Assembly: GCA_913046365.1 (NCBI GenBank)
Contig: CAJWRM010000001.1
Span: 154,860-218,859 of the forward strand
Length of the DNA: 64,000 bases
DNA from: an uncultured Flavobacteriales bacterium
Lineage (GTDB): Bacteria; Bacteroidota; Bacteroidia; Flavobacteriales_D; Crocinitomicaceae
Direction: 5' to 3'
Shown here piece by piece: positions 4,838 to 41,789 of this stretch. How positions within the stretch are numbered: the stretch's first letter is position 1; the number at the start of each line of letters is the position of its first letter. The notes beneath the pieces were generated by a model that did not search any database, was not told the DNA's origin, and was given only the letters and a program-made list of their open reading frames with translations. A program made the position numbers and the translations under genes.

Positions 4838-5042
4838 CACGACCTTTAAAATCAATGGTGAATACATTGAACTACTTGCACTTCTAAAAGCGCTTGGTAT
4901 TGCACAAACGGGAGGTCATGCAAAAATGATTGTTGATTCGGAGGAAGTAATTCGGAATGGTGAAATAGAGCTAAGACGCAGAGCGAAATGCGTGAAAGAC
5001 GATCTCATTGTAGTTGGTAACCAAAAAATACAACTCACTTAG
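4827..5042 (+). CDS. Small S4-domain RNA-binding protein (YbcJ-like)
   Basis: 71 aa; LLKALGIAQTGGHAKMIVDSEEVIRNGEIELRRRAKCVKDDLI S4-like core; overlaps folD 3' end. Confidence 0.8.
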   Translation: MENNTTFKINGEYIELLALLKALGIAQTGGHAKMIVDSEEVIRNGEIELRRRAKCVKDDLIVVGNQKIQLT

Positions 5043-5079
5043 GAACACTGAAGTTCATTGCATATAACTATAAAGCAGA

Positions 5080-5979
5080 TTAATTGATTTGCTCTGGTTG
5101 TCGGGAAGATTCTGTTGCCTGATAGATTCTTAAAACCAAAAGACCAAAAGTAACACTGGAAATAATCAATGCAATATTAGTCAGTCCGTCAGTTGCAAAC
5201 GACAATCTAATCAAGATGGTACAGATTACAAAACCAGTATTTCGTATCAGCTGACTGTATCGTTCTGTGTACTGAAAGGACAGAAGCAATATGAAAACAT
5301 CAGCCAAAATCAAAATGGTAAAAAATTCATTGTAGAATATTGAATTCAAATGAAAGGACGAGGTAATTGACGCTCCAGAAAACTGTGTCTCAAGCCATGC
5401 TATTAGAGTGTATAAGCTCGTAAAAACCAAGACAGGGAGTAAAATTAAACTTATTGCACGTTTAGAATTCACAAAACGTTGGAGACGGTCAGATAGTTTT
5501 CCCTTGACAAGCTTTTCACGACTTTTATTGAATAAGTAAATGAGGAAAAATAAAATTAAAATTCCTATTAAATCATAAATAAGCTGAAGGTTTTCAGGTG
5601 CTGTAGACCATGAGGCCATTAAGTCGATGTGTGGTATCTCTCCGAAAATTCGCCTAATTACAATCAATGATATAATTTCAAATTGCTTCGAAACAGATGT
5701 TGTAAAAGAACGGGGAAGGAAGTGAATTAGAAGATAAATCTCATAAATCAAAATAATAGAAAATGGTGTATAAATTGCCGAAATGGGGTCTGCGAGAAGA
5801 ATATTGTCCATTCTAGAATGGAAAATATCATAGTTCTTACCTAAGATGAGTAAAAGGTGAATTATAAATCCAACAACTGAAACATTGATCGTAATACGCT
5901 CAATTGTTTTTCGATTGTTTTCAGAAAAAACGCGAAAAAATAATTTTTCCACCCGAGGCTGCCATCCCTTTTGTTCCAT
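5080..5979 (-). CDS. Multi-pass integral membrane protein, function unknown
   Basis: Several hydrophobic segments; track start at 5997 is GTG, ATG at 5979 (MEQKGWQPRVEKLFF) preferred. Confidence 0.6.
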   Translation of the reverse strand: MEQKGWQPRVEKLFFRVFSENNRKTIERITINVSVVGFIIHLLLILGKNYDIFHSRMDNILLADPISAIYTPFSIILIYEIYLLIHFLPRSFTTSVSKQFEIISLIVIRRIFGEIPHIDLMASWSTAPENLQLIYDLIGILILFFLIYLFNKSREKLVKGKLSDRLQRFVNSKRAISLILLPVLVFTSLYTLIAWLETQFSGASITSSFHLNSIFYNEFFTILILADVFILLLSFQYTERYSQLIRNTGFVICTILIRLSFATDGLTNIALIISSVTFGLLVLRIYQATESSRQPEQIN

Positions 5980-6050
5980 GATTGGTAAACAACTCACAAG
6001 TATAAATGTTGTGATTGAGATGTATTATCCAGAAGAATTTGAGCCTATCT

Positions 6051-7130
6051 TTACTTCAGATATCTGAAATCTTGGCCAGCTTTGATGGACTTTACGGTTT
6101 CCAAAATCATACGAATACTATTTTCTACATCGTCTTTGTGAACCATTTCAACTGTTGTATGCATATACCGTAATGGTAAAGATATTAGTGCACTTGTAAC
6201 ACCATCATTCGAATAGGCAAATGCGTCTGTATCTGTTCCTGTTGAACGAGAAACAACAGCCCTTTGGAAAGGTATTTTATTTTTCTCTGCCGTTTTGAAT
6301 ATTTGCTTTAAGAAGTTGTTTTGTACCGCTGGTCCATATGTTAGGACAGGACCCTCACCTGATTTCAAATCTCCGTTTTCAATTTTACTCACCATTGGCG
6401 TATTGGTATCATGGCAGACGTCTGTCACCAAAGCAACATCAGGCTTAATACGCTCAGCAATCATTTGGGCTCCGCGCAATCCGATTTCTTCTTGTACAGA
6501 ATTAACAACGTACAATGTAAATGGCAATTTGGTCTTTGATTCTTTTAGTAAACGAGCTACTTCGGCAATCATAAAACCACCCATCCTATTGTCTAAAGCA
6601 CGTCCTACATATTTATTTTTATTCAGAATCATGAATTCGTCTTCGAAGGTGGCAACACAACCAACATGAATCCCTAAAGCCTCAACCTCATCCTTAGTAG
6701 TACAACCACAATCTAAAAAGATGTTCTTCATACTCGGGGTTTCTTCTTTACCCTTTCTCATGTGTATGGCTGGCCACCCAAATACGGCCTTCACAGGGCC
6801 TTTTTCAGTATGAATATTTACCCGCTTTGAAGGCGCTATCATATGATCCGATCCACCATTGCGCATCAAATAAATAAAACCATCCTTGGTAATGTAATGT
6901 ACAAACCATGATATTTCATCTGCATGCGCCTCAATAACAACTTTATATTTCTTTCCCGGATTTATGATTCCAGCAACACTACCATAATTATCAGTTATAT
7001 ATTCATCCACGTAAGGTTTCATATATTCCAACCAAAGCTTTTGGCCTTCAGATTCAAATCCTGTAGGACTTGGATTGTTTAAATATTTCTCGAGAAAATT
7101 TTCTGATTTCTTTGTAATTATCTTTTTCAT
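6051..7130 (-). CDS. M42 family metallopeptidase / glutamyl aminopeptidase-like
   Basis: VVIEAHADEISWFV, GRALDNRMGGFMIAEV, VQEEIGLRGAQM, DVCHDTNTP metal-binding motifs. Confidence 0.93.
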   Translation of the reverse strand: MKKIITKKSENFLEKYLNNPSPTGFESEGQKLWLEYMKPYVDEYITDNYGSVAGIINPGKKYKVVIEAHADEISWFVHYITKDGFIYLMRNGGSDHMIAPSKRVNIHTEKGPVKAVFGWPAIHMRKGKEETPSMKNIFLDCGCTTKDEVEALGIHVGCVATFEDEFMILNKNKYVGRALDNRMGGFMIAEVARLLKESKTKLPFTLYVVNSVQEEIGLRGAQMIAERIKPDVALVTDVCHDTNTPMVSKIENGDLKSGEGPVLTYGPAVQNNFLKQIFKTAEKNKIPFQRAVVSRSTGTDTDAFAYSNDGVTSALISLPLRYMHTTVEMVHKDDVENSIRMILETVKSIKAGQDFRYLK

Positions 7131-12256: not shown

Positions 12257-13495
12257 ATGATTCAATTTAAACGTTATACCTTAAATAATGGACTTAAAGT
12301 AATCCTCCACCACGATAAAACAACGCCGATGGCTGTTGTCAACACCCTTTATGATGTTGGTTCCAGAGATGAGCAGGAGGATAAGACCGGGTTCGCTCAC
12401 CTCTTTGAGCACCTTATGTTCGGAGGTTCTATTCACGTTGAAGATTTTGACCAAGAGCTTCAAAAAGCTGGTGGAGAAAGCAATGCGTTCACGAGCAATG
12501 ACCTTACAAATTATTATGAAATAATACCTGCAAACAATATAGAGACGGCACTTTGGTTAGAAAGTGACAGGATGCTTTCACTCGCTTTTACTGATAAAAG
12601 CTTGGAAGTGCAGCGCAGTGTAGTTATAGAGGAGTTTAAACAGCGTTATTTGAACCAACCCTATGGTGATGTTTGGCTCGAGTTAAGACCATTAGCATAT
12701 GAAAAACACCCTTACCAATGGGCAACTATTGGAAAAGATATTACCCACATTGAAAAAGCAGAAATGAGCGACGTCAAAGCATTTTTCAAAAAGTTTTATT
12801 GCCCCTCGAATGCAATTTTATGTGTCTCAGGTAATTTTGATTCCAGCTCAATTCAACAGCTCATCGAAAAATATTACGGAAGTATCCCAGGAGGTATAAA
12901 GCCTGCAAGAATTTTACCACTTGAACCACCTCAGACAGAATTTAGAGAAAAGTTGATTGAGCGTGATGTTCCCGCTAATGCTTTTTATTATGCCTTTCGG
13001 ATGTCAGAAAGAAAAAATATTGGATATTACTTGGGAGACTTTTTAAGTGATGCCATAGGTAAGGATCAATCCTCATTATTAAATGTGGCACTTAAAAAAG
13101 AGCAGGGCTTAGTTTCCGAAATAAATGCTTTCATTACAGGATCCCTTGATGATGGCTTATTCCTAATTACTGGAAAGCTTTCTGAGGATGTTAATTTCGA
13201 CACCTTGGACAGTGCACTCTGGCAGGAGTTAGAAAAGATTAAAGCAGAGGGTTTTAAAGCCCGTAAGCTTAACTCCTTAAAGAATAAATTAAATACTGCA
13301 AAAGCTTTTCAAGAGCAAGGATTATTAAACAAATCTATAAGTCTTTGCATGTTTGAGCTGCTCGGAGATGCAAACGGTTTAAATGAGGAAATTCAGATCT
13401 ATAATAAGATTGAAAATGATGATATTCTTGGATTTGCGAATTCAATTTTAAGGAAGGAAAATTGCTCTTTACTCAAAATAAATAAAACAAAATGA
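12257..13495 (+). CDS. M16 family zinc peptidase, catalytic-type subunit
   Basis: HXXEH motif in GFAHLFEHLMFGGS; RSVVIEEFKQRYLN; LNPYG-type region. Confidence 0.92.
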   Translation: MIQFKRYTLNNGLKVILHHDKTTPMAVVNTLYDVGSRDEQEDKTGFAHLFEHLMFGGSIHVEDFDQELQKAGGESNAFTSNDLTNYYEIIPANNIETALWLESDRMLSLAFTDKSLEVQRSVVIEEFKQRYLNQPYGDVWLELRPLAYEKHPYQWATIGKDITHIEKAEMSDVKAFFKKFYCPSNAILCVSGNFDSSSIQQLIEKYYGSIPGGIKPARILPLEPPQTEFREKLIERDVPANAFYYAFRMSERKNIGYYLGDFLSDAIGKDQSSLLNVALKKEQGLVSEINAFITGSLDDGLFLITGKLSEDVNFDTLDSALWQELEKIKAEGFKARKLNSLKNKLNTAKAFQEQGLLNKSISLCMFELLGDANGLNEEIQIYNKIENDDILGFANSILRKENCSLLKINKTK

Positions 13496-14745
13496 ATCGA
13501 ACAAAGGCTCCAAAAACCCACAAAACGGGTGCTATTTCATTCATTTCTCCAGAGAAAATCGCGCTTAATAAAACAACTCCATTATATTGGATGTCTGATG
13601 TCTCTAATGAAACTGCAAGGATTGATGTTTATTTTGACGCAGGCTTGAGAAAAGCCAAAAACAGCATTGCGAGTATGACCTCATCGATGCTGCTTTCTGG
13701 TACTTCGCAAAAAAACTCAACTGAAATACATAACCAGCTAGATGATCTAGGTGCCTTTTTTGATATCGGTCTATCACATGAAGGTGTTATGGTTTCATTA
13801 TTTGCATTAAAGAGGAATATTTCTGAAGCCTATCATGTCCTTTTGGACGCCATAATCAATGCATCCTTTCCCGAATCAGAATTTCAAGAAGTAAAAGCCG
13901 AAAAAATTCAAAACTTTAAGATCAATATCAACCGTGTAGCCGTTATTGCTCAAAGGGCTTTTCAAAAACAATTATACTACGGAACAGAATATGCAATGCT
14001 TTCCGATGAATCTGATCTCCAAAAAGTTGAAAGACAGGAATTATTAGATTTTCATAAGACTAACTATGTAAATGGTATTTTTAAAATTGCCATTGTCGGC
14101 GCATTAGAAGAAAAGAAAATTCAACAAATCTGCGATGTATCAAAAACACATTGCATTGAACAAGCATTGGAATTTAAAAGTGATTTCCGTAACAAATCTG
14201 GAGTGATTCATGTTGAAAAAATAGATGCCCTCCAAACGGCAATACGCATAGGAAAAACCCTCTTCAATAAAAAACACGAAGACTTCTTGGATGTTAGTAT
14301 TCTCAATACTATTTTGGGAGACTATTTTGGGAGCCGGCTTATGAAAAACATAAGGGAAGACAAGGGATACACCTATGGTATAGGAAGTATAATTTCAGAA
14401 TCTGGCGGATCGGGATATCTGCTCATCGGCTCCGAAGTTGGCAAGGAACATTTACAACCAACATTAGATGAAATTAAAAAAGAGATGCTACTCTTGTGCA
14501 ATGAGAAAATAGGAAATGATGAACTTGGATTAGTGAAAAACCACCTGCTTGGTCAAATGCTTAAAATTTCTGATGGCCCCTATGCAATGATGGATCTATT
14601 TTTGAGTGTTGAATCTTATGGACTTCGCTCTGACTTCTATAATTCATATATTCAACGAATACACGACATAGATGCAAAGACAATCCTGCGAATGGCAAAT
14701 AGCTACTTGAATTGGAGTGACATGTCAGTTATTTCTGCAGGTTAG
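13492..14745 (+). CDS. M16 family peptidase-like, non-catalytic-type subunit
   Basis: M16 fold motifs (MKNIREDKGYTYGIGS) but no HXXEH; overlaps the upstream M16 gene by 4 bp. Confidence 0.9.
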   Translation: MNRTKAPKTHKTGAISFISPEKIALNKTTPLYWMSDVSNETARIDVYFDAGLRKAKNSIASMTSSMLLSGTSQKNSTEIHNQLDDLGAFFDIGLSHEGVMVSLFALKRNISEAYHVLLDAIINASFPESEFQEVKAEKIQNFKININRVAVIAQRAFQKQLYYGTEYAMLSDESDLQKVERQELLDFHKTNYVNGIFKIAIVGALEEKKIQQICDVSKTHCIEQALEFKSDFRNKSGVIHVEKIDALQTAIRIGKTLFNKKHEDFLDVSILNTILGDYFGSRLMKNIREDKGYTYGIGSIISESGGSGYLLIGSEVGKEHLQPTLDEIKKEMLLLCNEKIGNDELGLVKNHLLGQMLKISDGPYAMMDLFLSVESYGLRSDFYNSYIQRIHDIDAKTILRMANSYLNWSDMSVISAG

Positions 14746-14802
14746 CAACTTTATTTGGACGTTCTCGTTATAATACTACGTATTATGTTACGTTATATCC
14801 AT

Positions 14803-17800
14803 ATGCAAAGAGCCTTTGCCTTCATTCTTTTTTTAAGCTTTTCAATAAGCTTACATGCCTCCCATGTGATGGGTGGAGAAATAACATGGAGCTGCAGCGG
14901 AGCAAACACATATGAATTTCAGCTTGTGTTCTATCGAGACTGCAATGGTGCAGAAGTAAATATTATTTCTGAAGACCTCAGGGTTTGGAACCATCCTACA
15001 CTTAATTCAATAGTCTTAAATTTTATATCAAGAGAAGATATTTCTCCTTCATGCACTGTAGTGGCAGGATCACCACCTATGCTCGAATGCGGAACAGGCA
15101 GTGCGGCTGGTAATGGAGTTGGCGCAATTGAACGGATAACATACCGGAGTGACCCAATAAGCATAGAGGGTATTCCTCCCTCGGAAGGTTGGGTCTTTAC
15201 TTATGAAAATTTTTCAAGAAGTAATGCAATTAGCAATTTATCCGATCCATCCACATTTGGAATTACCTTGGCGGCGAAAATGTTCTCCAACCCAAATAGC
15301 ATTGACAATACATGTACAGACTCTTCACCTAACTTCTTACAATCACCTCATTTCGTTACTTGTGCAGGTTCTGAATATAGATACAATATGAATGCGATTG
15401 ATCCTGATCTCGATTCACTTCATTTTCAATTTGGGATACCATTTGATTATTTTCCCGTAGGTGTTTATGACCCTCCATCAAATCCAATGCCCGTTCCATT
15501 TGAATCTGGGTATTCATTTGACTCACCTACCCCGGATGAGAATATAGATGTTAACAATATTTCGGCGTCAATTGACCCTTCCACAGGTGAAATCGTGTTT
15601 ACAAGCTTTACCATTGGGAATTTCAATATTAAGGTCGCCGTTCAGTCTTTTAGGAATGGGGTATTAATCGGTGAGGTTGAACGAGAGATGCAGGTTGTGG
15701 TTTTGCCATGTAGCAGTGAAAACGATGCGCCTATAATTACGCCTCCATTTGCTGGTGGATTATTTGAAACAACAGTAAATGCCGGAGATTTAATTGACTT
15801 TGATCTTCTGGCAACAGACCTTGACCTTCTTCAGAATGGTGCAGCCCAAAATGTTATCATATCTGCCTCTGGACCCATGTTTGGCAATGGATATACAAGT
15901 CCTTTAGGTTGCGATATTGAACCTTGCGCTACCTTAAATAGCTTACCTCCTATCGAAGCACCTGAAAACGCAACGGCTTCTTTTTCTTGGCAAACCACCT
16001 GTGACCATTTGGTCAATCAGTTTGGGGGTATTTCTGAGATGATTCCTTATGACTTTGTATTTAAAGTTCAAGACAATTTTTGTCAGGTTCCAAAGATAAC
16101 CTACGCCACAGTCAGAATTAATGTTATGAATCCTGGAGTTCTTCAAGCGCCCAAAATAGATTGCATTCAAACAGACGTTGATGGTAACCTGACACTAAAT
16201 TGGACCTCCCTAAATAATCCCTTTAGTTCTTTCGTTGAATACGGGGTTTATTCTGTTCAAGATGGTTTATTGGCAAATCTCGTTGATGTTAATGCGAATA
16301 GTTTTCCTATCATGGGATCTACAGACACACAAGATTTTTTCCTATCGGTAACTTCTGGATGTAATGGGAATACAATAAAATACTCAGATACTATTTCCAA
16401 TATCTTTCTAAACCTAAACAACCCTGGAAACGGAATGGCTCTACTAAGCTGGAATGCTCCATCAAGCACTCCATTATCCTACACGGGAGACTTCTATCAT
16501 ATTTATAGAGAATACCCAACTGGAGTTTTCACCCTCATTGATAGCGTTGCAATGGGAAACAATTCGTATCAAGACACGATAGATATTTGTTCGGCATTTC
16601 TCAATTATCAAATTGTGCTTCCGGGAGCCATTTGCGATTTTACATCAAATATCACAGGAGATGTTTTTGAGGATTTAATGACTCCAGATATACCTTTAAT
16701 ATTCAGTGCAGGAATAGATACAACAACGAACCTCATGCAGATTGAGTGGAGCCAAAACCTACAAAGTGACACCTATGGATATGTGATCTATACCTTTGAT
16801 GCCGCTGGTATTTTGTATGAACTTGATACCGTATGGGGAATAGAATCAACAATATACACCTATGATGTACCATTTGAAGAAGGTCCCTTTTCATATTCAG
16901 TTGCGGCCTTTGATTCTTGCGAAACGAGTTCAGTACCTGTAACCTATCAAACAAGTGCTAAAGCAGACGTTCACACAACTATGGTATCCTCTTCCGAAGT
17001 ATTTATGTGTGAGCAAGAGGCTATTTTATCATGGACAAGCTATGCAGGGAGCACAACTGATTTTTACGAAATTTGGAGTCTCTCTAATGGTATATGGAAT
17101 TTAGAAGAAATCACTGAGGAAACAACAGCGACAATTGCTGTGAATGGAAACCAAAGCTATACGATTTACATCAATTCAATATTCATTGATGGCCACAATG
17201 CTTTTTCATCTCCTACATCATTTACAGTTCCCATTGCAGGAGACCCAGGATATAATTACCTGAAATTAGTTTCTGTAGTTGATGGAAATATTGAGTTGTA
17301 TCAATATATAGATGAATCTGTGGGTATCACTGAAATCATATTTCAGAGACGAGATTACAATGGCGCCTATGAAGAAATAGGAAGATCGGATGCAACCTCA
17401 GATGTGGTGTTCTTTATAGATGAGGATGTAGAAACAGAATTCCAGGCTTGGGAATACAGAACCAAATATATCGATAGCTGTGGTTTTGAAGGAGAATTTT
17501 CAAATGAGGCTAAAACAATATTCTTAGAAGGAGAAGCGAATGATTACGATTACATAAATACGCTCAATTGGTCAGATTATGAAGGGTTCGATGGCGGCAT
17601 AAAAGAGTACAAACTCTATAGGTCAATTAATGGCAGCTATGACCCCACTCCTATTGCTACATTTCTACCTGATGAAAATAATTTTATTGATGACATTAAT
17701 GGCATAGGTGTTCAATCTAAGGTTTGTTATCGAATAGAGGGTGAAGAACTTTTTAATACCTATGATTTCTCAGAAATCAGTTCTTCAAATGAACTATGCT

Positions 17801-34388: not shown

Positions 34389-34462
34389 GGGGATGTAGCT
34401 CAGCTGGCTAGAGCGCTTGACTGGCAGTCAAGAGGTCGTGGGTTCGACTCCCATCTTCTCCA
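34389..34462 (+). tRNA. tRNA-Ala (anticodon GGC)
   Basis: Cloverleaf: GGGGATG acceptor, GCTC/GAGC D stem, CTTGA-CTGGCAG-TCAAG anticodon arm (GGC), GTGGG-TTCGACT-CCCAT T arm, CTTCTCC A; contains the G3:U70 alanine identity pair. Confidence 0.95.
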
Positions 34463-34683
34463 CTTTTTCATTTCTTGTTTAAAAGTATGTAGCCGTATGT
34501 TATTAAATAACAGAGTAATTGGCTATTTTTCTAAAGTAAATAGGCGTAAATAAGTGCAGAATATAAGTACATCCTATTCAAAATATATTTGAAAAGGATT
34601 CTAAAATTGATTTACTTTATAGTATGAAAAAGATAATTATTACTAGAGTTGAAACAATATTTAAATACAAAAAAAGATAAGAA

Positions 34684-35415
34684 GTGAAAACAGAATTAAC
34701 TCTCTACTTATCTAGCATTATTTTATCATTCTTTTTCATAATGGAAGCTTTATTTTCTGCTGACTTTAGAAGAGGACTAAAAGGTAAGATTAAATACCGT
34801 AATATTTCTTATATAATTTCAAGTTTATTAGTAATTTTCCTATTGAGTAAGATTTCAAAATATCTTTCGTCTCTGGATTTAAAAAGTTTAGAAGTTTATA
34901 AGTTCCCTTTAATAGACTTTGTAGGGTGTTTTTTAATTGCTGAATTATTAAATTGGCTACTTCATTATATTAAGCATCAGGGCTTTTTATGGAAATTTCA
35001 TTTTCAACATCATTTAGATAAAAGATATACTGTATTGCTGACAGCACATACCCATGGAATTGAGGTCTTATTATCAGGGATTTTTGTTGGTATTATGATG
35101 AATTTAATTGGATTTAGTATTGAGGCTATTAACCTGTATTATTGTTTTTATGTTTTTGGAAATACATACCAACATTCAAGTTTTAATTTAAGTCTTGGGC
35201 CATTAGATAAAGTAATTGTGTCACCTCTTTATCATCGCATCCACCATTCAAAATCTTATCATGCAAACTTTGGGTGTACATTGACTATATGGGATATTGT
35301 ATTCAAAACAGCTAAGTGGCCAAAGTCCGATGAAGTTGTAAGGGATATTGGAATTAATCAAAAAGATGAGCCAATAGGTTTTTTAAAAGAAACATTTTTC
35401 TTTTTAAAAAACTGA
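34684..35415 (+). CDS. Sterol desaturase / fatty acid hydroxylase superfamily membrane protein
   Basis: Histidine boxes HYIKH (HX3H), HFQHH (HX2HH), HRIHH (HX2HH) with flanking TM segments; GTG start. Confidence 0.88.
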   Translation: MKTELTLYLSSIILSFFFIMEALFSADFRRGLKGKIKYRNISYIISSLLVIFLLSKISKYLSSLDLKSLEVYKFPLIDFVGCFLIAELLNWLLHYIKHQGFLWKFHFQHHLDKRYTVLLTAHTHGIEVLLSGIFVGIMMNLIGFSIEAINLYYCFYVFGNTYQHSSFNLSLGPLDKVIVSPLYHRIHHSKSYHANFGCTLTIWDIVFKTAKWPKSDEVVRDIGINQKDEPIGFLKETFFFLKN

Positions 35416-35519
35416 GTTTTTCTATAATATTCCTTAAAGTTCAATAATGACCTCATCGACTCATATTAATTTTATAATTGAAATTAACATATTCTACGTA
35501 AGAGCAAACTTTAAAAATA

Positions 35520-37043
35520 TCAATTGACTTCTTTAAGTTTAAGAGGAAAAAGCACTGGGGGTTTGCGATCGCCCGCCTTAATGTTTTTTTCTTCGTAATA
35601 GTTTTCTAACATTTGGAAATACTGATTCTTAGATAGAGCTTCAATTTTTAGGTCTCCAAGTTGTCCCATCAGTATGGCCTGTTCGTAATACGGGTTAGAT
35701 CTCAACTTCAACTCAACAAACTTGAGAATTTTGTCCTTATCAAATGAAGTTTTTGGATCGACAAGCACCAGTTCATAGAAGTATTTATTCTTTTTTACAA
35801 ATCCAACGGAAAAATACGCGGTGTAAATGTCAATTTCAAAATTCCTTGAAAGCTCATCTATGATTTCAACACAATGTAATTCAGTTAATTTCTCCCCAAC
35901 AATATCAGAATTCAAGCTTTTTCTCCCCACAAAAATCATAGTGGGAGTTTGCATAATCTTTCCGGTAATCAGCACTATGTCCTTAGTCCGATATCGCAAA
36001 AATCCGTTCCCAGTAGTCAGAATTACTTCATACTTGTTTCCAACAACCAAATCCTTACATAATATAACATCTTTAGAAAGTTGGCATTCAAATTCAAAAA
36101 AATGTGAAGTAAAAGACAAAACAGGATCTTTCTCTTTTGAAATCGGAATTGACACAACACCTTCACTGCTTAATAGGCCCTTTGCCTGAATTGGAATATC
36201 TCCTATAACAGTATTTAATTTATTCTGAAATACCTGACTACTACCATGCGTCCAACAACTAATCAACTTAAGATTTGGAAAGATTTTATCCCAAGTTGCA
36301 TCGATAGACAAATTTGAAGTTTTAGAAACGATAGATGTCCAGTATTCCCTGAGTATTTCATCCATCATCAAAAGAAAAGATGGGCTCCATGATGAAATAA
36401 AGCCAATTTTTTGATAGTTGATGATTTCCTTTAATTCTGCTTTAAAAAAAGCAGTTTTTTCAACAAAGTGATTTTTTCTTGACGAAAATATCATGTGTTT
36501 AGATAAAACCCTGCCCGCCCAAGACAAATAACGCGAATCGCTATCTATCCCAACAGCGATTCCTCCTTCAGTCCTCCAAATTGCCTTATTTGGTGGAGAA
36601 ATGGTCCAATAGCTTTTGCCAGAAAAGACGTTTTCATATGATTTGAATACGGCATGCATCCATGGCGCTAAGGCTGAATTAAATTCTTTTAAAAGGGATC
36701 GGTTGTAAGGGATTAATTTTGAGTCTGATTGGGTGCCAGAAGTCTCTTCAAAGAACAAAACCTTTTCGTTAGCAAGCACATTGTTATCTCCTCTTGAAAT
36801 ACAAGAAATGTAGGTGCTTAAGTCGTCATAATCAACTATTGGAACTTCTTTTTGAAACTCTTGGACAGTGGTTATTTTACTCAATGAATGCTTGACACCA
36901 TAATTGCTATTTTTAAATTGATTTAAATAGTCAAATAGTTTTTGTTCTTGAATTTTATTTGGATTATTAAGGTTATTTACAAAGAAATCGTTTTCTTTCT
37001 TTAGGCTTTTTAACCACAGATAATATGCCCAGGTTGTATTCAT
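35520..37043 (-). CDS. GH3 (auxin-responsive promoter) superfamily acyl-adenylate/amido synthetase
   Basis: FFEETSGTQSDSKLIPYN (GH3 ATP motif), YWTISPP, YEVILTTGNGFLRYRTKDIVLITG, EKLTE. Confidence 0.88.
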   Translation of the reverse strand: MNTTWAYYLWLKSLKKENDFFVNNLNNPNKIQEQKLFDYLNQFKNSNYGVKHSLSKITTVQEFQKEVPIVDYDDLSTYISCISRGDNNVLANEKVLFFEETSGTQSDSKLIPYNRSLLKEFNSALAPWMHAVFKSYENVFSGKSYWTISPPNKAIWRTEGGIAVGIDSDSRYLSWAGRVLSKHMIFSSRKNHFVEKTAFFKAELKEIINYQKIGFISSWSPSFLLMMDEILREYWTSIVSKTSNLSIDATWDKIFPNLKLISCWTHGSSQVFQNKLNTVIGDIPIQAKGLLSSEGVVSIPISKEKDPVLSFTSHFFEFECQLSKDVILCKDLVVGNKYEVILTTGNGFLRYRTKDIVLITGKIMQTPTMIFVGRKSLNSDIVGEKLTELHCVEIIDELSRNFEIDIYTAYFSVGFVKKNKYFYELVLVDPKTSFDKDKILKFVELKLRSNPYYEQAILMGQLGDLKIEALSKNQYFQMLENYYEEKNIKAGDRKPPVLFPLKLKEVN

Positions 37044-37784
37044 CTAAACATCAAAAAATGATTGAGAATTAATAGACCTTTCAACAGTAATTTTTGCGAG
37101 TCTTTTAAGATTCGTAGGGCACAATTTTGCCATACAAACCAACTCATCACCTTCATCAAAATGAGGGTTCATTTCTAAAAAAAAGTCAACATGTTTACTT
37201 TTTTTCGAGTATGTCCTTTGCGTATGAAAAGGTTTTAACTGTCCCATTTTTTCAGAAAACCTAAGAGTGCCCTTGGAGGGGCGCCAACTATCGGCAAAAA
37301 AGAAACTGGAACATTCATCTGCAAGCGCAAAATGATCTGCATGGTGTTCCTGATCTACAGAAGGATAATATTTTTCAAAGAAAAAGGGTAGGTACATGTA
37401 TGTTCGGTGTCCCTTAGAAAGAAGATACCACATCCATGTTTTATCTGGATACTTATGAAGCAATGAGGCGACTAAAACACACCAGCTTTTTACCAATTCT
37501 TGAGAACCCGTAAAATCTCCTGAAATGATAGTATCTCCTGAAAATAGAATATTATAATCTTTATTTTGGTAGCCTTTAGGATTTACAGCGAAAGTAGAAA
37601 AACCCTGAATATTTCCCTGGCCATCTTCAAAAACAATCACATAATCTTTATTTGAAAAATCATTCAGGAATATTTGTTTATCCATATGGTCATAATTTTG
37701 ACACATAAGAAGAAACATGCGTTCCTTTTCACTAGATGACACCTCTTCGCATTTCTTAAAAATATACTTAATGGGAATATTCAT
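37044..37784 (-). CDS. GNAT-like putative acyltransferase
   Basis: VIVFEDGQGNIQGFSTFAV...; WMWYLLSKGHRTYMYLPFFFEKYYP; 2-bp gap from the upstream gene. Confidence 0.5.
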   Translation of the reverse strand: MNIPIKYIFKKCEEVSSSEKERMFLLMCQNYDHMDKQIFLNDFSNKDYVIVFEDGQGNIQGFSTFAVNPKGYQNKDYNILFSGDTIISGDFTGSQELVKSWCVLVASLLHKYPDKTWMWYLLSKGHRTYMYLPFFFEKYYPSVDQEHHADHFALADECSSFFFADSWRPSKGTLRFSEKMGQLKPFHTQRTYSKKSKHVDFFLEMNPHFDEGDELVCMAKLCPTNLKRLAKITVERSINSQSFFDV

Positions 37785-37786
37785 AA

Positions 37787-38881
37787 CTATAATTTTGCAA
37801 GATCAATGTAAGGGATTCTATTTAAGGACTTATTAAGTTTATAATCCACAAGATAAAGAAGCCCTTTATACTCAATGTTACTGAAATATTTCATGGAAGA
37901 ACAAAGAGGATCTGATTCGGAAAGACCAACATAAAAGCATTGATAATTCTTGGCATTTTCTACAGAAACCTTATCCAGTAATTGAGCAAATATGTTCGGA
38001 TCATTATGCTCAATTGCAATTAGTGTGACAAAAAATGATTGTATTGAGGCCCCAATATTTGGAATAACTGGTTTGTGAAAGATTTTACTAAAGATTAAAT
38101 TGTGAAAAGGTTTAATCGTTTTGATGCGCGTAGACAAAGCGCGGATAAAAGTTTGTTTATATGAGGTTTGATCCCAGGCACCAATGACTCCCTTTAACTC
38201 TCCCTTGAAATGGGCAATGTACAGATTCGACCAATTAAACATTTGATATTCTTTACTATTTAGATCTTTCAGCTCAAATACAGGGAAAAAATCTTTTTTT
38301 CTTCCTTGCTTATTTATAAAATGAATCACATCCTCAGGCTTAAATCCATCAATTCCTCTTTGAATTTTTAGGCCATCATTAATATGAACCCTAGATCGGC
38401 TTATGGGCTTAATTACAAATGTGGAAAAACTTACATGGTATTTGTAATCTGGTTTGATTTTTCTTTTTTTTTCTAAGAGATTTCTTGCTAAATGATTGTC
38501 TTCTATGATTGTTGTAAAAGTCAATTCAGTATCATTTTTTTGTAAAAGATCCCTTAGTTTTTTAAATCCCAAATAAAGAACACGTCCATTTCTATGATCA
38601 TTTAAAATTCGCAGTGAACTGTAATAATTGACCTTGGATGGCTGTTGGTCTATGTAAAGTGCTTTTTGGGAAATGATGCCTACGCCAACTATTTTCTTGC
38701 TCTCCACTTCTTCAACGATAAGAACATCATTTTTTTTACCTAAAAAATTTATAGCATCAAAAAAGGAGGGTTCGGTTTCAAATGAAACAGAGATGTCTCC
38801 CGACATGGTCGTATCTCTGAGAATTCTTTTGATTGAATCATCATGTTTACAACTGGCAATTTTACTCAAGTATTTTGCCAT
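37787..38881 (-). CDS. GNAT-like (possibly tandem-domain) putative acyltransferase
   Basis: DVLIVEEVESKKIVGVGIIS..., ITIIEDNHLARNLLEKKRK-like context, second half LYIAHFKGELKGVIGAWDQ; ATG at 38881 preferred (track start 38890 is TTG); overlaps the upstream rSAM gene. Confidence 0.6.
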   Translation of the reverse strand: MAKYLSKIASCKHDDSIKRILRDTTMSGDISVSFETEPSFFDAINFLGKKNDVLIVEEVESKKIVGVGIISQKALYIDQQPSKVNYYSSLRILNDHRNGRVLYLGFKKLRDLLQKNDTELTFTTIIEDNHLARNLLEKKRKIKPDYKYHVSFSTFVIKPISRSRVHINDGLKIQRGIDGFKPEDVIHFINKQGRKKDFFPVFELKDLNSKEYQMFNWSNLYIAHFKGELKGVIGAWDQTSYKQTFIRALSTRIKTIKPFHNLIFSKIFHKPVIPNIGASIQSFFVTLIAIEHNDPNIFAQLLDKVSVENAKNYQCFYVGLSESDPLCSSMKYFSNIEYKGLLYLVDYKLNKSLNRIPYIDLAKL

Positions 38882-40229
38882 TCTTGTCAATTATATTACC
38901 TATTGGCCAACTTTGTCTCTGTTTAATTCCTTTTTGAGACACGAAATTTGCACTCATAAAAGAAATGGTTTGAAAAGGATTAGAAAACGGGTCTCTGCAA
39001 TTTGCTTTAAACTCTATTCTTTTCAAAATATTTGAATATTTATAAAATTCGAGTCGGGCATTATAACATCTCTCGGAAAGCTCCTCGGGAGACATATTTT
39101 TAGGCTGAAAGGACACCTCGCCAAAATTATAGCCTTCCTTCAACCACCATTCTTTGTCAATTAACCTGCCTTCTTTTTCAAATCGATGATATAATGGCGT
39201 TCCAGGATATGGCACCAAATGATTAAAAGCGGCTAATGCAAGTTGTTCCTCGATGGCAAATTCTAGTGTTTTTTCGATGTCGTCAGGTTTGTCCTCATCA
39301 TATCCAAATACAAATGTTCCATAGACAGAAATACCATAATCTTTTAAAATTTTTAAGGATTCAGAATAACCTCTTTTCACAACTGCCCAACTTTTTCCCA
39401 TACTTTTTAGCGTATCTTCATTTAGAGATTCAAAACCAATCAACAAGTTCGAACAACCGCTTTTCTGTAATTTTTTTAGTAGGTCTGGTTGACTGGCCAT
39501 ATTAATTGTACCATGACTAAACCATTTTTTCTTTAAAGGAATCATTGCATCGCAAAGCTCTTTGGTTCTTGAGAATTTTGAAACAAAATTATCGTCAGCG
39601 AAATAGAGCATTTTTTGCGAAATATTTTCAATATCTGAAATGATATGTTGAACCTCCTTTGATTTATACTGCGCTTTGTGTGCAGCAGTTATTGCACAGA
39701 ACTCACAAGTAAATGGACACCCCCTTCCTGATTCAACTAGACCTAATGGTAGGTATCCTTTATTCGCGTATAATTTTCTATTTGGTGGGCAATGGTCTAA
39801 GGTTTTTTCAAAATATGAATTTGCATCATATTTCCGTTTCAATTTGTTGTTTTTGAAATCAGAAAGCACTTGATTCCAAATTCCGCCCTCAGCACCGCCA
39901 ACAAGCATGGCGTCACAGTGGTTTACAACCTCATCGGGCATGAGGCTCGCATGTATGCCTCCCATGACCACTTTAATACCCTGTTTTCGGATTTTTTTGG
40001 CAATTGTATAAGCTCTTTTTGCTGTGTATGTTTCAATAGTAATTCCTACCAGATCAGCCTCGTATATTTCCGGCAATTCATCAATTCGTTCATCAATCAG
40101 TTCAATATCAATATCGTCAGGAGTCATACCTGCAAGAGTAGACAAAGCTAAAGGCTCCATTGTCCATGATTTCACATATTTTTCACCATGAATTTTGCCT
40201 ACACTGGGTTGTATTAGTAATAATTTCAT
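38862..40229 (-). CDS. B12-binding domain-containing radical SAM protein (copy 2)
   Basis: N-term cobalamin-binding-like domain (WTMEPLALSTLAGMTPDDIDIELIDERID, VVMGGIHASLMPDEV), CxxxCxxC in GRGCPFTCEFCAI, FADDNF. Confidence 0.92.
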   Translation of the reverse strand: MKLLLIQPSVGKIHGEKYVKSWTMEPLALSTLAGMTPDDIDIELIDERIDELPEIYEADLVGITIETYTAKRAYTIAKKIRKQGIKVVMGGIHASLMPDEVVNHCDAMLVGGAEGGIWNQVLSDFKNNKLKRKYDANSYFEKTLDHCPPNRKLYANKGYLPLGLVESGRGCPFTCEFCAITAAHKAQYKSKEVQHIISDIENISQKMLYFADDNFVSKFSRTKELCDAMIPLKKKWFSHGTINMASQPDLLKKLQKSGCSNLLIGFESLNEDTLKSMGKSWAVVKRGYSESLKILKDYGISVYGTFVFGYDEDKPDDIEKTLEFAIEEQLALAAFNHLVPYPGTPLYHRFEKEGRLIDKEWWLKEGYNFGEVSFQPKNMSPEELSERCYNARLEFYKYSNILKRIEFKANCRDPFSNPFQTISFMSANFVSQKGIKQRQSWPIGNIIDKNGKILE

Positions 40230-40235
40230 TTTGAT

Positions 40236-41576
40236 TCAAGTGATTTGTGAATTCCATTTTTGTTCTAAATCAATAATTGTATCATTAGGGAAATTTCTCA
40301 ACCTTGTACCATAGTATCGATATCCCATATTTGTGATTAATGATATCGGAAAGCTCGTTCCGGAATTAGAGATGCGCTCTTTAATATTTTTGTACTTGTA
40401 GGTATTTTCCCATGCCCAGATACTTCCCTCGAATAGTTCATCAGGAGTTAGGTTTTTAGGCTGATAGACCACATGTTGTACGTCATATAAGGACCAATTT
40501 CGGGTTAGAATTCGGTTTTGTGATTCGAGTTTTCTAAATGCACCAGTACCGGGAAATGGAGTGTATATAGCATATCTTGGTAATTCAATTGAATTCTCCT
40601 GAACAAAATCAACTGTTCGTTTAAAGGTATCTTTGGTATCAGAGTCCATCCCAAAAATAAATGTACCATTGATTGCTATCCCTCTTTCATGAAGTCTGGC
40701 ACATAGATTTCTGTATTTTTCTACCACATTGAACCCCTTATTAATTTCTACCAGGGCATCTTGTTCTACGGATTCAAAACCAATGAGTAATCCCTTGCAG
40801 CCACTTTCAGCACAGAGGTCCATTAGCTCCTCATCGTCCCCAATTTTCACAGTGGCTAGTCCTCCCCACATTTTCTTCAAGGGAATCATTTCTCTTAAAA
40901 GTCGTTTGATATATTTTTTATCTTCCATTGGGCTGGGATCGACGAATGTCACAAAGTTTCCATTCATTTCACTGATTTCTTTTATTACATCCTCTACAGG
41001 TCGTCTAAGGTATTTTTTCTGCGTGCTAATTACGGCGCAAAAATCACACTTATAAGGACATCCAAACGTTGCCTGTATTGTGCTTTTTGAGATATATGAA
41101 AATTTTGGTAACAAGTCCTTTCTGGGTAAAGGAAGATTGCTAAAATTCATTTGCGGAGACTGGTCATAATGTCTTTTTAAGGCCCCGTTTTTAAAATCCA
41201 ATAATAATTGAGGCCATGTTTCAAATGCCATCCCTGTGACAATGGCATCTGCATGATTTAGGGCCTCATCGGGCATAAGGGATGCGTGAACACCACCTAT
41301 TACAACACATACACCCTTTTTTCTATAGTGATCAGCAATAGCATAGGCGCGATTAACTGTTCCTGTTATTGCGCTTATAGCCACTATATCGGGACGGTCG
41401 TTATAATTAATCTTTTTTGCAATTTCATCATTCAATTCTATTGACGCTTTAAGTTCATCAGGTACCAATGAGGCTAAAGTAGAGAGAGTTAAAGGAGCAT
41501 AGCGAAGGAGTCTCGGGAATATACCACCCTCTTTCCTGTACATCACGCTGCCCGGAGAAATTATTTTTATGTTCAT
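40236..41576 (-). CDS. B12-binding domain-containing radical SAM protein (copy 1)
   Basis: RYAPLTLSTLASLVPDELK, VVIGGVHASLMPDEA, CxxxCxxC in TFGCPYKCDFCAV, FVDPSP. Confidence 0.92.
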   Translation of the reverse strand: MNIKIISPGSVMYRKEGGIFPRLLRYAPLTLSTLASLVPDELKASIELNDEIAKKINYNDRPDIVAISAITGTVNRAYAIADHYRKKGVCVVIGGVHASLMPDEALNHADAIVTGMAFETWPQLLLDFKNGALKRHYDQSPQMNFSNLPLPRKDLLPKFSYISKSTIQATFGCPYKCDFCAVISTQKKYLRRPVEDVIKEISEMNGNFVTFVDPSPMEDKKYIKRLLREMIPLKKMWGGLATVKIGDDEELMDLCAESGCKGLLIGFESVEQDALVEINKGFNVVEKYRNLCARLHERGIAINGTFIFGMDSDTKDTFKRTVDFVQENSIELPRYAIYTPFPGTGAFRKLESQNRILTRNWSLYDVQHVVYQPKNLTPDELFEGSIWAWENTYKYKNIKERISNSGTSFPISLITNMGYRYYGTRLRNFPNDTIIDLEQKWNSQIT

Positions 41577-41612
41577 TTTAATGATTTAGTTAAATCGTAT
41601 CATAAATCGAAA

Positions 41613-41620
41613 CAAATATA
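41613..41620 (-). promoter_or_regulatory. Candidate -7 element of the radical SAM operon promoter
   Basis: Minus strand TATATTTG (TAnnTTTG consensus) 37 bp upstream of the ATG; no well-spaced TTTG -33 box seen. Confidence 0.35.
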
Positions 41621-41675
41621 TTTTACCAATATCAATGTTTTATTAATAAGTCAAAAGCAAAATTGCGTCAAAAAA

Positions 41676-41789
41676 GGATATTTAAATATAGCAGAAATAG
41701 CCGAAAAATATATCGGTAGTTCAATTGAAGACCAAAAGAAAACTTTAGAAAAAGGTTATAAATGGTTTAAAGAAAATAAGGTAGTGTGA
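41676..41789 (+). pseudogene. C-terminal remnant of a decayed gene (possibly SDR/NAD-epimerase-like)
   Basis: Start-less frame GYLNIAEIAEKYIGSSIEDQKKTLEKGYKWFKENKVV* with protein-like composition; no upstream ATG in frame. Confidence 0.45.

Follow-up and report, generated by a model that had tools for sequence, protein, structure and literature searches.

A horizontally transferred five-gene cassette with paired B12-binding radical SAM enzymes, an NMT-like acyltransferase and a GH3 ligase, a candidate route to an amphiphilic amide

We propose that five adjacent genes of an uncultured Flavobacteriales bacterium form a complete, horizontally transferred cassette for making a small amphiphilic molecule that contains two or more amide bonds, a reading to which we assign a probability of about 0.45. 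The observations from which we start are the gene content, its linkage across phyla, its transfer as a unit, the predicted folds of the proteins and the fixed C-terminus of one of them. Linkage and transfer of the five-gene unit are well supported, and the recurrence of all five across phyla shows that their joint presence is not due to chance. All five open reading frames were confirmed in the sequence of the window (the whole 64,000-nucleotide stretch of DNA analysed), codirectional and nearly abutting on the minus strand, with the coordinates and junctions reported in an earlier note on this DNA. The order of transcription is rSAM1 (40236-41576), a B12-binding radical SAM enzyme usually present once per cassette; rSAM2 (38862-40229), a second such enzyme, with one to three copies per cassette in relatives; N1 (37787-38881), predicted to be a tandem-GNAT acyltransferase with an N-myristoyltransferase (NMT)-like fold and a conserved C-terminal Leu; N2 (37044-37784), a single GNAT-fold protein and the most constant partner of GH3; and GH3 (35520-37043), a GH3-family ATP-dependent acyl acid amido synthetase. 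The enzyme classes given in the earlier note were right, those of GH3 and the rSAMs by Pfam and those of the two GNAT proteins by relatives and structure.

The junctions between the five genes are 6 bp, an overlap, 2 bp and 0 bp, and with intergenic gaps this short a single transcript is likely. The ORF caller starts N1 at TTG 38890, but ATG 38881 is probably the true start, because an ATG occupies the same codon in the homologue in locus L008; the overlap with rSAM2 is then 20 bp. Upstream of rSAM1, a region on the same strand (41577-41728) is conserved in a second Flavobacteriales locus (L007, see below) and probably holds the promoter.

Homologues were surveyed first with rSAM2 across GTDB and then with all five proteins by tblastn. 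Many unrelated phyla have the five genes together, frequently in the same order and with about 25-50% identity. MAGs labelled Myxococcota, Parcubacteria, Verrucomicrobia, Kiritimatiellae, Lentisphaerae and Oligoflexia carry rSAM1, one to three rSAM2-type genes, N1, N2 and GH3; the full set is also present in MAGs labelled Gastranaerophilales, Desulfobacterales, Synergistaceae, Nitrospirae, Planctomycetota, Holophagaceae and Flavobacteriales, and Acidobacteriota are among the groups in which it recurs. Partial sets, some of them at contig ends, are found in further groups such as Bacteroidales. The order rSAM1-rSAM2-N1-N2-GH3, as in the window, is seen in five of the loci (L151, L153, L155, L156 and L157). 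The homologues are thus syntenic, where the earlier note had allowed that they might not be.

N2 was followed separately and is present in 21 of 24 genomes carrying an rSAM-family relative. A single-sequence search with N2 across 297 genomes of the phylum recovered only its own genome, and a profile was needed to find more; profile matches, counted with the seed genomes and weak matches included, occur in 12/141, 8/196 and 3/198 genomes of the phyla of L038, L022 and L020, respectively. Thirteen strong matches lie outside the profile seed, and their loci contain GH3 (12 loci), N1 (10), a B12-rSAM (8) or all five genes (6). Distant N2-like GNATs at L136-L142 and L159 were rejected as members, the other four genes being absent nearby. 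The distance matrices of the five families correlate in all ten pairs (Spearman 0.27 to 0.59, no pair being equalled or exceeded by more than 6 of 999 permutations), and these correlations owe part of their strength to shared organism history. In a comparison of the window with L008, identity is 78-81% for the rSAMs but only 41-48% for N1, N2 and GH3, a contrast that would fit a radical step that is kept while the acyl or amine partners change. We note that rSAM1 of L008 (L008:345-1682) contains one in-frame stop, reflecting either a decayed gene or an assembly error.

The Flavobacteriales MAG MED-G58 (L007) contains a 6.3 kb block that is 96.8% identical to window positions 35435-41728 (cassette on the minus strand), with unrelated sequence on either side; both of its flanks are unlike those of the window. 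The left flank of the MED-G58 block is found in the host genome on another contig, at 66-72% identity and without the cassette. A cassette approximately 97% identical, set against a compared backbone of about 70% and placed at different loci, is strong sequence evidence for recent transfer of the complete five-gene set. No convincing attachment repeats were seen at the block ends, and no N2 was found in the other congeneric genomes surveyed. Together with synteny and the distance-matrix correlations, transfer of the whole block supports the earlier proposal that the five genes act as a single functional unit. The cassette is single-copy and patchy in distribution, and patchiness and mobility would also fit an anti-phage defence cassette; both rSAMs weakly match the PADLOC candidate PDC-M51A (25.9 and 38.4 bits). 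Such a match is expected from shared B12/rSAM architecture, however, and GH3, N1 and N2 match no defence model, so that the PADLOC results led us to reject a defence system, which we regard as very improbable.

Both radical SAM proteins have the two expected domains, with Pfam scores for rSAM1 of 39.1 bits (B12-binding) and 63.8 bits (Radical_SAM), and with both domains above cut-off in rSAM2. The CxxxCxxC motifs reported earlier are confirmed as invariant in both families (C173/C177/C180 of rSAM1 in 24 homologues; C171/C175/C178 of rSAM2 in 30). The two form two clades, with three outgroup sequences falling inside one and one inside the other. MetH is present in the host genome, which indicates that the host uses cobalamin. 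The rSAMs score below every curated cut-off, the best scores being to HpnJ (98 bits against a cut-off of 578), BchE (96/481), PhpK (85/600) and TIGR04072 (68/360).

NMT acylates proteins and some radical SAM enzymes modify proteins or tRNA, and the cassette could in principle direct modification of a macromolecule, by protein or tRNA lipidation with radical methylation, and yield no free metabolite. This is improbable: free acids are the substrates of GH3 enzymes, no substrate gene is conserved nearby, and the rSAMs lie far below every curated macromolecule-modifying family. The refuting condition named in the earlier note, that the rSAM pair are known tRNA- or protein-modifying enzymes, did not hold, as no curated family of that kind was reached.

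Pfam finds nothing above cut-off in N1 or N2 of the window, and sequence profiles of the two against the PDB gave nothing useful; their folds were informative instead, and these, with their relatives, support and sharpen the earlier guess that both are GNATs. The N2 AlphaFold model (pLDDT 90.5) is a single GNAT fold with GNAT structural matches. The N1 model (pLDDT 92.3) is a tandem GNAT, with two adjacent GNAT domains in one chain, and its best 50 Foldseek matches in the PDB, a database very rich in NMT entries, are all eukaryotic N-myristoyltransferases (E values of 2e-14 to 1e-12). The N1 chain ends exactly four residues past the last internal column to be conserved, with Leu as the final residue in 22/22 aligned homologues at ~25% identity; the C-termini of N2, GH3, rSAM1 and rSAM2, by contrast, are ragged in both length and residue. 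Among N1 sequences fetched later, 11 of 14 (two of them duplicate contigs) end in Leu, with Val in L156 and L157 and Thr in the diverged L158.

This fixed terminus would correspond to the catalytic C-terminal carboxylate of NMT, where the carboxylate of the last residue deprotonates the substrate amine, and the site of human NMT1 is completed by Thr282 and the backbone amides of Phe247 and Leu248 (PMC7048800). An invariant Tyr89 and a near-invariant Thr127 of N1 are 38 residues apart, compared with 35 between Phe247 and Thr282 of NMT1, and they may be the corresponding residues. A review describes use of the C-terminus as unique to NMT among GNATs (PMC4964394), and Eis is reported to use a C-terminal carboxylate as well (PMC8556138); in view of Eis, the long-chain acyl specificity of N1 is putative and is suggested by its fold similarity to NMT. 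The Pfam GNAT model Acetyltransf_9 matches 6 of the 22 N1 members, and the Pfam NMT family matches none of the 22 at E values up to 0.1. An NMT-like reading of N1 is likely from the model, yet because there is no Pfam NMT match we do not file it as a family member, its resemblance being one of fold and C-terminus.

GH3 scores 135.8 bits with PF03321 and 55.8 bits with PF23571, the N and M domains being above cut-off, and its C-terminal domain (PF23572, 20.9 bits) is just under the cut-off of 23.6; the family profile matches plant GH3 structures over its full length (E value of 4e-39). Two more GH3 genes, on contigs C16 and C24 of the host genome, are about 27-32% identical to the cassette GH3 over the aligned parts. 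The nearest named NCBIfam family, to which GH3 is distantly related, is the lyso-ornithine lipid synthetase OlsH (NF052613), but a score of 37 bits against a curated cut-off of 620 led us to reject membership. In a planctomycete, N-acyl ornithine is the product of the GH3-like OlsH, and the authors of that work anticipate that other bacterial GH3 proteins take different amino acids as head groups (PMC12493201).

That precedent, together with the NMT-like N1, raises the question as to whether an ornithine-lipid-like amino lipid is made here by yet another route, distinct from OlsH/OlsI, in which N1 makes the N-acyl bond, GH3 or N2 finishes the molecule and the rSAMs methylate the acyl chain. 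We consider this quite unlikely, given the distance of GH3 from the OlsH cut-off, a cassette with no OlsI-like hydrolase, and a host that already has OlsB-type Acetyltransf_5 family matches elsewhere.

The accessory genes differ from locus to locus, and not all of them suggest a lipid. A SPASM-like rSAM, an amidohydrolase and a hexapeptide protein are present in some clusters, and a methyltransferase is also among the varying genes. In L154, N1-N2-GH3 lies beside a radical SAM protein with a zinc-ribbon N-terminus (5000-6319), the best PDB match of which is the tetraether lipid synthase Tes (GDGT-macrocyclic archaeol synthase; E value of 6.6e-17). Three Myxococcota loci (L131, L132 and L134) have neither N1 nor a B12-rSAM, and combine N2 and GH3 with AurF-like, Rieske, ferritin-like or fatty acid hydroxylase genes (the last in L134), a pattern that would fit an oxidative module exchanged around a core of N2 and GH3. 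Possible tailoring genes follow GH3 in two close relatives, a fatty acid desaturase in L008 (L008:6411-7367) and a sulfotransferase in MED-G58 (L007:12775-13740). In L158, proteins with an HxxxDG-like motif and no Pfam match are encoded (5292-6464, 12288-13628 and 13676-15019) beside N2, GH3 and a diverged N1 that lacks the C-terminal Leu.

The window itself has a gene of the FA_hydroxylase family (34684-35415, plus strand) adjoining the cassette, near tRNA-Ala(GGC) (34389-34463). We rejected it as a sixth core gene, as it lies outside the block shared with MED-G58, is on the opposite strand and has only local similarity to the L134 hydroxylase. Among 29 congeneric genomes there are at most distant homologues, and the gene may have been acquired independently at this locus.

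This mixture of accessory genes bears on whether the product is a membrane lipid at all. It could instead be a polar small molecule (an antibiotic, signal, metallophore or osmolyte-like amide), with N1 and N2 transferring short acyl or acetyl groups, GH3 joining two small acids or amines, and the rSAMs tailoring the core. A single-copy, patchy cassette that jumps between genomes would suit such a product, as would the amidohydrolase and SPASM-like rSAM accessories and the Acetyltransf_9 similarity of some N1 proteins, and the B12-rSAMs known from antibiotic biosynthesis (PhpK, AprD4) reach scores similar to those of the lipid ones. On the other hand, the best fold matches of N1 are long-chain acyltransferases, the family nearest to GH3 is a lipid synthetase, some loci have fatty acid desaturase or hydroxylase and Tes-like rSAM accessories, and no resistance or exporter gene is constant. 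We thus view a polar product as possible but rather unlikely.

For the amphiphile that we favour, we infer the following order of steps, with acyl chain length and the identities of the amines equally provisional. N1, with its own C-terminal carboxylate as base, would acylate an amine with a fatty acyl group taken from CoA or ACP; GH3 would adenylate a carboxylic acid (this N-acyl amino acid or a fatty acid) and join it to a second amine, or to an amino acid; N2, working closely with GH3, would acylate a remaining amine; and rSAM1 and rSAM2, using SAM and cobalamin, would methylate, cyclise or cross-link an unactivated carbon. The product would be an N-acyl amino acid or lipid, its lipid nature being suggested by the NMT-like fold of N1, the OlsH-like chemistry of GH3 and the lipid-type accessory genes of some relatives; the core cassette has no carrier protein, O-acyltransferase or lipid exporter. 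The interpretation offered in the earlier note is plausible and receives partial support. A more specific proposal, which we advance tentatively and consider doubtful, is that this widespread, mobile combination of NMT-like acyltransferase, GH3 ligase and paired B12-radical SAM enzymes makes a new class of non-glycerol amino lipids, and that in some Myxococcota oxygen-dependent enzymes of the AurF/Rieske type seem to take the place of N1 and the radical enzymes while N2-GH3 stays as the core.

The cassette spans more than ten bacterial groups and has no PKS, NRPS or terpene enzymes, and standard cluster finders would probably miss it. The earlier note had called the system a candidate undescribed one, and we found no published description of this gene combination in the open-licence literature, which is weak evidence of novelty. 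If the pathway is confirmed, it would provide a new class of amino lipids or lipoamides and place NMT-type acylation, thought to be eukaryotic, in bacterial metabolism. The orphan protein families N1 and N2 gain a role that can be put to the test, and at 6.3 kb the unit is of a size that could be expressed in one piece.

N1 shares with eukaryotic NMT a tandem GNAT fold (Foldseek E value of 2e-14, TM about 0.6) and a C-terminus fixed in position and residue, but has only 9-13% identity in the fold alignments, and is bacterial and operon-borne with an acceptor that is probably a small molecule; NMT itself takes a long-chain acyl-CoA as donor and an N-terminal glycine as acceptor. With Eis-type bacterial acetyltransferases it has GNAT domains in common, and Eis too has a catalytic C-terminal carboxylate (PMC8556138); however, Foldseek ranks NMT first for N1. 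Eis combines a tandem GNAT with a C-terminal SCP-like domain; N1 is about 365 aa long, and its model ends directly after the second GNAT domain. The cassette GH3 resembles the plant amido synthetases GH3.12 and JAR1 in its full-length profile match, but is distant and encoded in a bacterial operon. Like OlsH/OlsI of Singulisphaera (PMC12493201), the cassette has a GH3-like enzyme that would form an amide bond with ATP, and it differs in having two B12-rSAMs and two GNATs in place of an OlsI-type alpha/beta hydrolase. Finally, the rSAMs are similar to HpnJ, BchE, PhpK, AprD4 and the ladderane-type TIGR04072 in their B12-binding domain, radical SAM core and CxxxCxxC motif, but fall below the cut-offs of those families and form two separate clades.
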